Assembly: GCA_903928015.1 (NCBI GenBank)
Contig: CAIYPF010000087.1
Span: forward strand, 1-63,297
Direction: 5' to 3'
DNA from: an uncultured Gammaproteobacteria bacterium
GTDB taxonomy: Bacteria; Pseudomonadota; Gammaproteobacteria; Pseudomonadales; UBA5518
Length of the DNA: 63,297 nucleotides
Position numbers and translations under genes: made by a program. Numbering within the stretch: the stretch's first letter is position 1; every line of letters begins with the position of its first letter. Of this stretch, positions 3,071 to 63,297 are shown in pieces. The notes under the pieces are model-generated. The model was not told where the DNA came from. It worked only from the letters and a program-made list of their open reading frames with translations, and searched no databases.

Positions 3071-4165
3071 TCAGACATTGAACCTGAAGTGCACCACATC
3101 CCCGTCGCGCAGCACGTATTCCTTGCCTTCGAGCCGCCACTTGCCCGCGTCCTTGGCACCCTGTTCGCCGTTGCAGGCGATGAAGTCTTCATAGGCGATG
3201 ACTTCGGCACGGATGAAACCTTTCTGGAAGTCGGTGTGGATCACGCCCGCGCCCTCGGGTGCCTTGGCACCCACGGGTACGGTCCACGCGCGCACTTCCT
3301 GCACGCCGGCGGTGAAGTAGGTCTGCAGGCCCAGCAGCTGGTAGCCGGCGCGGATCACGCGGTTCAGGCCCGGTTCGTCAAAACCCAGCTCCGCCAGGAA
3401 GTCCGCGCGCTCGGCCTCTTCGAGTTCGGCGATCTCGGCCTCGAGCTTGTTGCAGATGGGCACCACGATCGCGTTCTCGGCAGCCGCCATCTTCTGCACG
3501 GCGTCCAGGTGCGGGTTGTTGCTGAAGCCGTCTTCCGCAACGTTGGCGATGTACATCGTCGGTTTGCCGGTCAGAAGGTTCAGTTGCCGCAGCAGCAGGC
3601 GCTCTTCGTCGCTTGATACCACCAGCGCGCGTGCCGGACGCGCCTCGTTCAGCAGCGGGATCAGCCGCTCGAGCAGGTCGCGCTGCTTCACCGCCTCCTT
3701 GTCGCCACCCTTGGCCACGCGCGAGACGCGCAGCAGCTGGCGCTCTGCGCTCTCCAGATCCGCCAGCGCGAGCTCGGTGTTGATCACCTCGATGTCATTC
3801 AGCGGGTCGATGCGGTTCGAGACGTGCACGACGTTGTCATCGCGGAAGCAGCGCACCACGTGCGCGATGGCGTCGGTCTCGCGGATGTTGGCGAGGAACT
3901 GGTTGCCGAGACCCTCGCCCTTCGAGGCGCCGGCCACCAGGCCCGCGATGTCCACGAACTCCATCGTGGTGGGCACGATGCGCTGTGGTTTGACGATGGC
4001 GGAGATGCGGTCCTGCCGCGGATCTGGCACGGGCACGATGCCGGTATTGGGCTCGATGGTGCAGAACGGGAAGTTCTGTGCCGCGATGCCGGCGCGCGTG
4101 AGCGCGTTGAAGAGGGTGGACTTGCCCACGTTGGGGAGGCCGACGATGCCGCAGTTGAATCCCAT
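3071..4165 (-). CDS. ychF: Ribosome-associated ATPase YchF/EngD
   Basis: The 364-residue protein (family about 363) begins [17 protein letters not shown] with the P-loop at residues 8-17. It carries the relaxed G4 motif NVAE that gives YchF ATP rather than GTP preference, a central helical arm, and a C-terminal TGS domain (from about residue 280, [20 protein letters not shown]). It binds the 70S ribosome and modulates stress and translation responses. It lies 3 bases downstream of pth, as in most gammaproteobacteria. Confidence 0.98.
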
Positions 4166-5628: not shown

Positions 5629-6594
5629 TCAGGCGAACATCGCGCTGATGGATTCTTCGTTGCTTACGCGCCGTACTGCCTCCGCAAGCAGCGAGGCGCT
5701 GCTCAGCACACGGATGCGCTCGCAGCCCCTGCCCTCGGGCGAGAGCGGGATGGTGTCGGTCACGACCAGTTCGTCGAGTACGGACGCCGAGATATTGCTG
5801 ATCGCCTTCCCCGAGAGCACGGCATGGGTGCAGTAGGCGATGACGCGCGAGGCACCGTGATCTTTCAGGGCCTGTGCCGCCTTGCACAGGGTGCCGGCGG
5901 TGTCGACCATGTCGTCGATCACGAGGCAGGTGCGGCCTTCGACCTCACCGATGATGTGCATGACCTGCGACTCGTTGGCCTTGGGACGGCGCTTGTCGAT
6001 GATCGCGAGGTCGAGGTCGTTCAGCTGCTTGGCAATGGCGCGAGCGCGCACCACACCGCCTATGTCTGGCGATACCACCAGAGCGTTTTCGTAGCGCTGG
6101 CGCTCGATGTCATCGATCAGTACGGCGGAGCCGTAGCAGTTGTCGACGGGCACATCGAAGAAGCCCTGGATCTGTTCTGCGTGGAGGTCGATGGTCAGGA
6201 CGCGGTTCACGCCCGCCTTGGCCATCATGTCGGCGACCACCTTGGCGCTGATCGGCACGCGGCTCGAGCGCACGCGGCGGTCCTGGCGGGAATAGCCGAA
6301 GTAGGGCACCACCGCCGTGATCCGCGTGGCCGACGAGCGCCTGAGCGCGTCGATCATGAGGATCAGTTCCATCAGGTTGTCGTTGGTAGGGGCGCAGGTG
6401 GACTGAATGATGAAAACGTCCTTGCCTCGGACGTTCTCATCAATCTCGATACTCGTCTCGCCGTCGCTGAAGCGTCCGATCGTCGCGTTGCCGAGGCGCA
6501 GCCCCAGCTTCTGGACGATTTTCTGGGAGAGTTCCGGATTCGAACTGCCAGTGAACACCATCATCTCGGGCACGTAGGCGGTCCTCGTCGTCAC
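5629..6594 (-). CDS. prs: Ribose-phosphate pyrophosphokinase
   Basis: The enzyme makes PRPP from ribose 5-phosphate and ATP for nucleotide, NAD and His/Trp synthesis. Visible signatures are GRFSDGE, the loop around [23 protein letters not shown], the catalytic His in [11 protein letters not shown], and the PRPP-binding loop [14 protein letters not shown]. The 321 residues include a slightly long N-terminus. An internal ATG at [10 protein letters not shown] would give the common family length, so the start is the only doubt. Confidence 0.97.
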
Positions 6595-6615
6595 ATGCGG
6601 TCCGGTAAGGAAAAT

Positions 6616-6697: not shown

Positions 6698-7537
6698 TCA
6701 TAAACCCAGTGCTGAGTGCACCGGTGAGCGGTCGAGGCCAACTGCCACGAACCGCATCCATTCCCCAGGCACCGTTGCAGCCGCTTCCCACGCTGCTTGC
6801 TCGTCTTCGAAGGCTGCGAAGACGGCGCTTCCGGTGCCACTCATGCGGGCTGTTCCGTAGCCCCCGAGCCAGGCGAGGGCCCGTGCTATTTCCGGGTTGA
6901 TCCTGCTGGCGACGGGCTCGCAGTCATTATGACTGTGGCCCCCCAAAAAGGCGGCCATTGTGATTTCGGGGGTAGAACGTGTCAATTGGGGGTCTTTGAA
7001 AATCCCGGCAGTATTCACCGGGCACCCCGGGTAGATCACAAGGTACCAGCGCGTGGGTAATTCGACGGGCGTGAGCACCTCGCCCACGCCCTCGGCCCAG
7101 GCGCTGCGGCCGCGCACGAAGACCGGTACGTCTGCGCCCAGCGCGAGCCCCAGTCGAGCGAGTTCGTCCAGCCCCAGGCCGGAGCCCCAGAGGCTGTTCA
7201 GCCCAAGCAGGGTGGTTGCCGCGTCAGAGCTCCCTCCGCCCAGCCCTGCGCCGACTGGCGTGTGCTTCAACAGAGTGATGTCCGCGCCCAGGGGCGAGCC
7301 GGTGCGGGCCTTCAGGGCCCGTGCGGCCCGCAACACGAGGTTGTCCTCGGGGTCCACGCCCTCCAGCCCGGTCTGCAGGTTTAACTGACCGTCATTGCGT
7401 GCCTCGAAGCGCAGTTCGTCACCGTAATCGAGCAACTGGAATACGGTTTGAAGCAGGTGGTAGCCGTCGTCACGACGCCCGGTGATGTGCAGGAAGAGGT
7501 TCAGCTTGGCGGGGGCGGGCAGGTGCAGCACGGGCAT
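6698..7537 (-). CDS. ispE: 4-diphosphocytidyl-2-C-methyl-D-erythritol kinase
   Basis: This GHMP kinase of the MEP isoprenoid pathway phosphorylates CDP-methylerythritol. The 279-residue frame begins MPVLHLPAPAKLNLFLHITG and has the glycine-rich ATP loop PVGAGLGGGSSDA at about residue 95 and a C-terminal MSGTGSAVFAAF block. ATG 7537 overlaps the lolB stop (ATGA), so the longer open frame upstream is a lolB shadow. Confidence 0.97.
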   Translation of the reverse strand: MPVLHLPAPAKLNLFLHITGRRDDGYHLLQTVFQLLDYGDELRFEARNDGQLNLQTGLEGVDPEDNLVLRAARALKARTGSPLGADITLLKHTPVGAGLGGGSSDAATTLLGLNSLWGSGLGLDELARLGLALGADVPVFVRGRSAWAEGVGEVLTPVELPTRWYLVIYPGCPVNTAGIFKDPQLTRSTPEITMAAFLGGHSHNDCEPVASRINPEIARALAWLGGYGTARMSGTGSAVFAAFEDEQAAWEAAATVPGEWMRFVAVGLDRSPVHSALGL

Positions 7538-59743: not shown

Positions 59744-61402
<1,659 letters not shown>

Positions 61403-61432
61403 TCGCGCCCCCGTTCAGCCCAGCTGAGCCCC

Positions 61433-61466
61433 GAAAGCCCCGGCAAATGCCGGGGCTTTCTTTTTG
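61433..61466 (+). terminator. Rho-independent terminator after groEL
   Basis: GAAAGCCCCGGC and GCCGGGGCTTTC pair over twelve bases around AAAT, followed by TTTTTG. It lies 30 bases after the groEL stop. Confidence 0.93.
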
Positions 61467-61495
61467 TTTTCAAATTCCGGAGTGCCGCCTACACT
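61467..61495 (+). promoter_or_regulatory. Possible promoter for the 61.6-kb membrane protein gene
   Basis: TTTTCA (61467-61472), a 17-base spacer and TACACT (61490-61495) resemble a sigma-70 promoter between the groEL terminator and the next gene. The match is moderate. Confidence 0.4.
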
Positions 61496-61587
61496 ACGGT
61501 CGATGCCTCGCCGCATCGCGTGCGCACCGCCCCGGGCGGAACCACTCTTGCCGCACGACGAACACACATCGCTCAGAGGAGAAATAA

Positions 61588-62241
61588 ATGAGTCCCGATA
61601 TCTTCAGCTTGGCCGGTGCCGCACAGCTTTCCCGCTGGGTTCACTTCATGGCCGGCGTCACCTGGATTGGCCTGCTGTACTACTTCAACTTCGTGCAGGG
61701 CGAATACTTCAAGGAAGCAACGCCCGACGCCAAGTCCGATGCCGTGAAGAAGCTCGCTCCACGCGCGCTCTGGTGGTTCCGCTACGGCGCACTGCTCACC
61801 TTCCTCTCGGGCGTCGTGATCCTCGGCCTCTACGGTCATCCCACGCAGGCCTGGACCTTCGACATCACGATCGGCGCCCTCATGGGCACACTGATGTTCC
61901 TGAACGTGTGGCTGATCATCTGGCCGAACCAGAAGATCGTCTGCGGCATCGTGCCGGGTGATGCCGCTGCGGCAGGCCCGAAGGCGCTGCTCGCATCCCG
62001 CACCAACGTGCTGTTCTCGGGTCCCATGCTGCTGTTCATGGGCGCCTCGGCTCACCTCTCGCACGGCCTGCTGGGCAACGCCAGCTCCACCGCGCTGTGG
62101 GCAGCAGTTGCCATCATTGCCGCGCTCGAGTTGAACGCCATCAAGGGCAAGCTCTGGCCGGCCATCGCCACGGTCCGTGGCGTGATCCATTGCTCCATCG
62201 CCCTCGCAGTCGTGCTGTGGCTGGTGATGAGCCTGCTCTGA
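61588..62241 (+). CDS. Membrane protein with urate-oxidase N-terminal (PuuD-like) domain
   Basis: The 217-residue protein has about five to six membrane helices. The pattern WVHFMAGVTWIGLLYYFNFV, RALWWFRYGALLTFLSGVVI, LNVWLIIWPNQKIV and SGPMLLFMGASAHL is that of the Urate_ox_N membrane domain. In PuuD urate hydroxylases this domain is followed by a cytochrome c domain; none is present here. The conserved His residues might bind haem. No urate pathway genes are nearby. A strong Shine-Dalgarno (AGAGGAG) precedes ATG 61588. Confidence 0.75.
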   Translation: MSPDIFSLAGAAQLSRWVHFMAGVTWIGLLYYFNFVQGEYFKEATPDAKSDAVKKLAPRALWWFRYGALLTFLSGVVILGLYGHPTQAWTFDITIGALMGTLMFLNVWLIIWPNQKIVCGIVPGDAAAAGPKALLASRTNVLFSGPMLLFMGASAHLSHGLLGNASSTALWAAVAIIAALELNAIKGKLWPAIATVRGVIHCSIALAVVLWLVMSLL

Positions 62242-62256
62242 TCGCGCACTAGTGCG

Positions 62257-62292
62257 GCAACAAAGGGGCCCGACGGCCCCTTTTTTGTTGCC
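62257..62292. terminator. Strong, possibly bidirectional terminator
   Basis: AGGGGCC and GGCCCCT pair around CGAC, extended by A-rich and T-rich arms and by GGCAAC with GTTGCC. A T-run follows on the plus strand. It lies just after the 61.6-kb gene. Confidence 0.88.
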
Positions 62293-62298
62293 TATAAT
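62293..62298 (+). promoter_or_regulatory. Consensus -10 box (TATAAT)
   Basis: A perfect TATAAT lies 29 bases upstream of the coiled-coil protein start. The -35 region falls inside the preceding terminator and is not a good match. Confidence 0.35.
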
Positions 62299-62326
62299 CC
62301 GGCCAGATTCCTGCGACCCTGCCGCC

Positions 62327-63085
62327 ATGCCAAGCCCCGATGACAAGCTGACCGACATCCCGCTGATCGTGCCCACACGGGACGATGACGAGCCCGCGCA
62401 CCGTCGCCCGCGCTCCGAGGCGCCGGCGGCTGCCCGTGCGGGGCGGACGGAGCAGGCTTCCGCGCCTGCTCCGGGCGGATCGAGCCGCTACGTGGCCATA
62501 CTGGCGCTGCTGCTGGCGCTGGCAACGGCCGCTGTTGCCGGTCTCCTCTACCAGCAGACGGTGCGTCTGGACGCAGCGCTCGGGCAGGCAAACCTGCGCA
62601 TCGCGGACCTCGAAGGCAAGCTCTCGGTGACGGGCGACAACGTGAGCCAGTCGAGCGCGGCCATGCAGATCAAGATCAAGGAGCTCGGTGGAGAAGTCGA
62701 CAAGCTCTGGGCCTCGGCCTGGCGCAAGAACGACGGGCGTCTCACCGAACTCGAGTCCGGCATGAAGAAAGCCGCGGGCAGCTATGTGGCCCAGCAGAAG
62801 CAGCTCACCACGGCTACCGCCGACATCAGCAGCCTCAAAGAACAGGTAGGGCAGGCCACCGCTGTCGCTGCCACCGTCGATACCCTGAAGCAGCAGCAGG
62901 CCGGCCTTCAGGATTCGATTGGACGCGTGAGCAGCACCGTGAATACGGTCTCGAACACGCAGCGCGCGCAGGAGTCCCGCATCAAGGAAACCGAGCAGTG
63001 GGTGCAGTCCACCATCGAGTTCCGCAAGCAGGTCACGCAGCGCCTCACCCGACTCGAGAACCCGCCGTCCTCGCTGCCGCAATAG
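62327..63085 (+). CDS. Single-pass membrane protein with long coiled coil
   Basis: The 252-residue protein starts MPSPDDKLTDIPLIVP. It has a charged Pro/Ala-rich cytoplasmic N-terminus, one membrane helix (about residues 54-76, YVAILALLLALATAAVAGLL), then heptad-rich coiled coil to about residue 235. I do not recognise a family; the layout recalls envelope or division-associated ATPase-less scaffolds. An upstream start would run into the terminator and was rejected. It ends 5 bases before the REP array. Confidence 0.75.
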   Translation: MPSPDDKLTDIPLIVPTRDDDEPAHRRPRSEAPAAARAGRTEQASAPAPGGSSRYVAILALLLALATAAVAGLLYQQTVRLDAALGQANLRIADLEGKLSVTGDNVSQSSAAMQIKIKELGGEVDKLWASAWRKNDGRLTELESGMKKAAGSYVAQQKQLTTATADISSLKEQVGQATAVAATVDTLKQQQAGLQDSIGRVSSTVNTVSNTQRAQESRIKETEQWVQSTIEFRKQVTQRLTRLENPPSSLPQ

Positions 63086-63090
63086 GTAAG

Positions 63091-63297
63091 GTCGCGGGCA
63101 TGGCCCGCTCCTACGGTGGGGTGGTCGCGGGCATGGCCCGCTCCTACGGTAAGGTGGTCGCGGGCATGGCCCGCTCCTACGGTAGGGTGGTCGCGGGCAT
63201 GGCCCGCTCCTACGGTGGGGTGGTCGCGGGCATGGCCCGCTCCTACGGTGGGGTGGTCGCGGGCATGGCCCGCTCCTACGGTAAGGTGGTCGCGGGC
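63091..63297. repeat. Tandem array of 33-bp REP-like palindromic units
   Basis: Six full 33-base units start at 63091, 63124, 63157, 63190, 63223 and 63256. A seventh, starting at 63289, is cut by the window edge. Each contains GCGGGC-ATG-GCCCGC, a perfect hairpin, then TCCTACGGT and a variable purine pair before GGTG. The pairs run GG, AA, AG, GG, GG, AA. The core resembles Pseudomonas REP sequences (GCGGGC...GCCCGCTCCTAC), but head-to-tail tandem copies at constant spacing are unusual. Confidence 0.93.

Follow-up and report, generated by a model that had tools for sequence, protein, structure and literature searches.

Tandem REP palindromes at a contig end of an uncultured gammaproteobacterium: a GTAG-type array probably amplified in place with its flanking DNA

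The window analysed here is the whole of contig C87 (CAIYPF010000087.1; 63,297 nucleotides), one of the 220 contigs that make up the 4.27-Mb genome assembly (GCA_903928015.1, hereafter G000) of an uncultured gammaproteobacterium of the Pseudomonadales. Its last 208 bases are filled by a head-to-tail array of repetitive extragenic palindromes (REPs) that begins just after the gene for a predicted coiled-coil protein. Very probably, the array stems from GTAG-type REPs, linked to a REP-associated tyrosine transposase (RAYT), that were amplified locally by tandem duplication together with flanking DNA, much like the SMAG arrays of Stenotrophomonas. The array is real, probably variable and of a known kind: while it is new as a member, tandem GTAG palindromes with flanks have already been described.

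Organization of the array

Tandem Repeats Finder places the array at 63090-63297 (no strand assigned) with a period of 33 bp, 6.3 copies, 96% matches, no indels and a score of 381. Six whole 33-bp units occupy 63090-63287 and are followed by the initial 10 bases of a seventh (63288-63297, minus strand). The initial annotation had described at least seven tandem 33-bp units running off the right edge; the tandem organization and the run-off stand, the edge being the contig end, while the count falls to six complete hairpins plus 10 bases. Each unit joins a 23-base REP, letter-identical in all six cases, to a spacer of 10 bases (GGTRRGGTGG); at the purine pair RR, successive spacers have GG, AA, AG, GG, GG and AA. 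This series and the identity of the hairpins, both noted at the outset, were confirmed letter by letter. Read on the minus strand, the REP opens with a GTAG head, continues with two unpaired bases (GA) and a 6-bp GC stem (GCGGGC and GCCCGC) enclosing a 3-base loop (CAT), and closes with GA. Copy 1, which is GTAGGAGCGGGCCATGCCCGCGA on the minus strand, lies at 63092-63114, and copies 2 to 6 follow on the same strand at 63125-63147, 63158-63180, 63191-63213, 63224-63246 and 63257-63279. Since all six REPs in the window share one strand, with GTAG first on the minus strand, the alternating orientation of bacterial interspersed mosaic elements (BIMEs) or REPINs is not found there. The hexamer GTAAGG (63086-63091) separates the stop codon of the upstream gene from copy 1 and, taken with the last G of that stop codon, would resemble the spacer variant GGTAAGGTGG shifted by three bases, a likeness expected if the spacer derived from the flank. 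Allowing four mismatches or fewer against the genus pattern, with a GTAG-like head and the full stem kept, revealed no further REPs in the window; three weak matches at 3845, 8510 and 48013 look like chance.

Regular spacing could also bring to mind an array of clustered regularly interspaced short palindromic repeats (CRISPR) or a repeat protein, the latter because 33 bp is divisible by three and two plus-strand frames out of three stay open across the array. Either identity is exceedingly improbable. Unlike those of a CRISPR, the 10-base spacers hardly differ from one another, and the upstream gene ends ahead of the array. Elsewhere in the genome the same REP recurs at scattered positions with other spacers, and a search of the last 2.8 kb of the window against Rfam returned no match inside the array at E values up to 1.

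The REP family and its transposase

In G000, 249 REP matches were found at up to two mismatches compared to none for a reversed control, which places the array far beyond chance; among the 100 matches listed of the 249, the REPs are dispersed across many contigs. A degenerate REP pattern gave 214 matches in G000 and, in the sister genomes, 49 in G001, 98 in G002, 0 in G003, 269 in G004 and 129 in G005, with a control of 0 in all six. The elements thus show the features of the GTAG REP superfamily, namely a GTAG end with a short palindrome and a high, scattered copy number, and the GA dinucleotide between GTAG and the stem agrees with the GW given in Table 1 of PMC3733652 for the GTAG-1 subfamily, which is defined by a conserved 3-base tail as well.

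Two IS200-type transposase genes were found in G000, on contigs C61 and C56. The first (C61:6624-7157, minus strand) is a RAYT, scoring 127 bits against the NCBIfam model REP_Tyr_transpos (equivalog cut-off 80) and resembling TnpAREP 4er8 (E 6.2e-7). It is flanked by inverted REPs, one on the plus strand at 6582-6604 and one on the minus strand at 7198-7220, as is characteristic of RAYT-associated REPs. The REP-like label first given to the array is therefore well founded on the GTAG head, the hairpin, the hundreds of copies and a RAYT gene bracketed by inverted REPs, whose presence in the genome had been proposed as a check. The C56 transposase scores 78.1, just under the cut-off, and no REP adjoins it within the 3.3 kb examined around the gene. 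RAYT-like genes of the C61 type also occur in G004 and G005, where the flanking REPs carry a GCGCGC stem. As a separate observation, the REPs around the C61 gene have the GCGGGC stem as opposed to GCGCGC in G005 (L097) and G004 (L098), though both stem types occur in all three genomes.

Duplication of REPs together with their flanks

The arrangement of REPs was followed in 62 stretches of G000 (window included) and 20 of G004, all picked for holding REPs. They contain 23 same-strand runs of at least three REPs (15 in G000 and 8 in G004; two of these, both in L122, adjoin each other at one place), with periods of 28-62 bp barring one irregular run. Nineteen of the 23 keep to one period throughout. 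Spacers average 0.86 identity within runs versus 0.44 between them, and this likeness inside a run and unlikeness between runs points to the spacer having been copied along with the REP. The head-to-tail combination of a REP with a locus-specific flank, which is the hallmark of SMAG-like tandem arrays, is seen in the window array and in the 22 other runs.

Orthologous sites in the sister species, compared at one genome per species, offer a second view. The site downstream of the coiled-coil gene holds a single inverted pair in G001, three REPs in G005 and two in G004, and is empty of REPs in G003. At a second orthologous site, G001 has 1 REP, G000 has 3 at a period of 58 close to where contig C195 ends, and G004 has 10 at a period of 35, flanked on both sides within a 250-kb contig. 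This second site is the clearest evidence for in-place, independent amplification of single REPs with differing unit lengths. The suggestion that the locus is hypervariable is thus supported between species only, as copy number differs at orthologous sites. A third site, the 41-bp array on C184, was dropped as an ortholog since G004 and G005 match its downstream side only and its upstream neighbour differs.

A different origin for the array would be serial insertion of adjacent REPs by RAYT instead of duplication in place. A RAYT gene is indeed present and the REPs cluster; however, spacers are near-copies within runs and different between them, so the spacer must have been copied with the REP, and two species show different periods at one orthologous site. 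Repeated insertion is accordingly judged very unlikely. An assembly artefact, in which a repeat was mis-joined or expanded, is less probable still. The array does lie at a contig end, and 48 of 97 exact REP matches fall within 250 bases of a contig end versus about 2.6% expected, a count drawn from the 100 matches listed of 249 that omits three exact matches for want of a contig size. Yet real repeats likewise give contig ends in short-read assemblies, the order of the spacer variants is no simple echo, and the ten-unit array of G004 sits well inside its contig. Because a sister genome also holds arrays, one of them with ten units and both flanks, an artefact is unlikely. REP arrays break the G000 assembly.

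Stem type provides a further perspective on how direct and inverted arrangements arise. Among same-strand neighbours in the run stretches (n=114), the stem type is the same in 101, different in none and unclassified in 13, while among inverted neighbours (n=99) it is the same in 9, different in 76 and unclassified in 14; the run stretches, being selected for REPs, understate same-type inverted pairs. Genome-wide, close pairs were listed at gaps of 4-34 bases, which leaves uncounted those 2-3 bases apart such as the mixed-type pairs also seen in G002. By orientation (same-strand, tail-tail, head-head), the counts are 39, 18 and 14 in G000, 37, 32 and 24 in G004, 9, 7 and 9 in G005, 11, 3 and 8 in G002 and 4, 1 and 2 in G001, with 0 pairs in G003. 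One broader proposal is that, in species like G000 and G004, mixed-stem inverted pairs move as units while one-stem direct arrays expand on the spot and independently of one another, even within one intergenic site, forming rapidly changing sets of 3' hairpins that tune the genes beside them. This proposal is unlikely, and its probability was lowered slightly because G002 has only same-type inverted pairs at gaps of 4-34.

Several observations weigh against local tandem duplication of RAYT-linked REPs. One G004 run (L124) has periods of 46, 57 and 37 and a spacer identity of 0.50, which does not fit simple tandem duplication. By eye, mixed stem types occur in 1 of the 100 same-strand pairs of the genus (G000:C211:38605), 7 of 32 tail-tail pairs in G004 are of one stem type, and so are 11 of 11 inverted pairs in G002 (gaps 4-34). 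The presumed founder flank, GTAAGG, is only partly spacer-like, and the flank in G001 differs. Finally, direct REP pairs exist in G001 and G002 even though no Y1 transposase gene found there adjoins a REP (two genes in G001 and one in G002), which leaves a role for RAYT in the amplification unproven; the fragmentation of these assemblies may have cost a REP-flanked gene at a contig break. Likewise, no REP lies beside the single Y1 gene of G003, where the degenerate pattern gave 0 REPs.

Despite these points, local duplication with flanking DNA remains the favoured origin, and its course can be sketched. A GTAG-type, RAYT-linked REP would have settled after the coiled-coil gene, probably within an inverted REP pair, given that G000 has hundreds of REPs and a REP-flanked RAYT and that an inverted pair occupies the same site in a sister species. 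Replication slippage or unequal exchange would most likely then have duplicated the left REP and some 10 bases of neighbouring DNA head-to-tail in place, and further duplications and point changes would have produced the GG, AA and AG spacer variants. That the duplication took place in situ is suggested by spacer similarity and by the orthologous sites.

A dispersed repeat of about 145 bp was also observed in G000 and G004, in stretches chosen for REPs, some copies lying less than 100 bases from an array. Examples are L119:1942-2087 (G004), L073:2691-2861, L075:7279-7443 and L084:4845-5013, with others in L114, L131, L133 and L135, and further matches occur in G000, G001, G004 and G005. Nine aligned copies give a consensus fold of 55 pairs, 21 of which have two-sided changes that keep the pairing. 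The repeat matched no Rfam family at gathering score, and it is unmatched in the window (E 1e-8) and in 10 stretches around Y1 genes (E 1e-3).

Neighbouring genes and a possible role at transcript ends

The upstream gene (62327-63085, plus strand) encodes a predicted coiled-coil protein of 252 amino acids, beginning at an ATG also used by the sister sequence; its matches to coiled-coil-type profiles are weak and below cut-off. A homologue, 84% identical, is encoded on CAMAXE010000015.1 (L140). In the sister species G001, the next gene after the coiled-coil gene is a class I type fumarase. G000 carries its own copy of this fumarase, with 96% identity, on contig C152. That contig also terminates in the array, and its end overlaps the end of C87 by exactly 36 bases. 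At this join, a truncated seventh REP copy is followed by an inverted REP 49 bases before the fumarase start, so that the shortest version of the site holds six full REPs, the truncated seventh and then one REP in the opposite direction. Because the 36-base overlap sequence occurs twice in the window, the join does not fix the true number of units; six is a lower bound, as short-read assembly may collapse such repeats.

Once the REP had been duplicated, any transcript reading through the array would contain a series of GC-rich hairpins. A single REP hairpin with its 6-bp GC stem folds at -11.8 kcal/mol, and as RNA the region 63060-63297 folds more stably than shuffled versions of itself (z -2.4), 3 of 200 of which do as well. 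No terminator-like site was detected after the coiled-coil gene in a scan that took in the C87 side of the site, up to the window end; groEL and the gene after it, which are the two genes preceding the coiled-coil gene, have one terminator-like site each. A promoter scan of 61300-63297 found none. The stability of the hairpin, the better-than-shuffle fold and the lack of a terminator-like site after the gene make a passive 3' barrier plausible, and the array probably acts in this way at the mRNA 3' end between the coiled-coil and fumarase genes, though sister species manage without such an array. A stronger proposal is that the array was selected for a function, whether as an mRNA 3' stabilizer, as a site for Rho or gyrase, or as a variable rheostat of expression lying between the two genes; the initial annotation had suggested mRNA 3' stabilization or an array that binds gyrase or another protein. 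Its position 6 bases past the stop codon and between co-directional genes is the usual one for REPs as described in PMC3733652, and the same folding and terminator results would suit such a role. No array is needed at this site, however, since the sister species make do there with a lone inverted pair, with two or three REPs or with no REP at all, and arrays also sit at many other places. A selected function therefore seems rather unlikely, and many REP copies may be without function.

Relation to known systems and implications

The closest parallel to duplication with flanking DNA comes from S. maltophilia, where single or paired GTAG palindromes (SMAG) are tandemly reiterated with their flank and the number of units differs between isolates (PMC2613905). 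In one example, 50-bp units consist of a 24-bp SMAG and 26 bp of flank, the flank length being locus-specific; at the four loci followed in three strains over 5 days of subculture, no change was reported (PMC2613905). The window array shares with SMAG the tandem arrangement of GTAG-tagged palindromes with a locus-specific flank. It differs in the stem sequence and host, and variation is compared here between species as opposed to isolates. Clustering is likewise familiar from the GTAG-1 families of P. syringae, X. campestris and Thauera sp. MZ1T, whose elements are mostly clustered, and inverted REP pairs have been described as often being of two types (PMC3733652). The window REP resembles GTAG-1 elements in its GTAG end, the unpaired dinucleotide before the stem and the frequent clusters; unlike the families as described there, same-strand pairs make up 39 of 71 close pairs in G000 (gaps 4-34). 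The RAYT-associated REP of X. campestris, GTAGGAGCGCGCTCGCGCGCGA (PMC2817692), flanks a RAYT gene and is nearly the same as the GCGCGC-stem REP of this genus, whereas the window REP has the GCGGGC stem and CAT loop. In P. fluorescens SBW25, ordered REPIN clusters are also tandem repeats that include flanking sequence, but the unit there is an inverted doublet (PMC3116915) and in the window it is a single REP.

Taken as very probable, local duplication would mean that the tandem amplification of single REPs, known in Stenotrophomonas, extends to this gammaproteobacterial genus. It would also explain why the G000 assembly breaks at REP arrays. The second orthologous site provides a clean comparison at one location, with one species keeping a lone REP and two sister species carrying arrays whose unit lengths differ.
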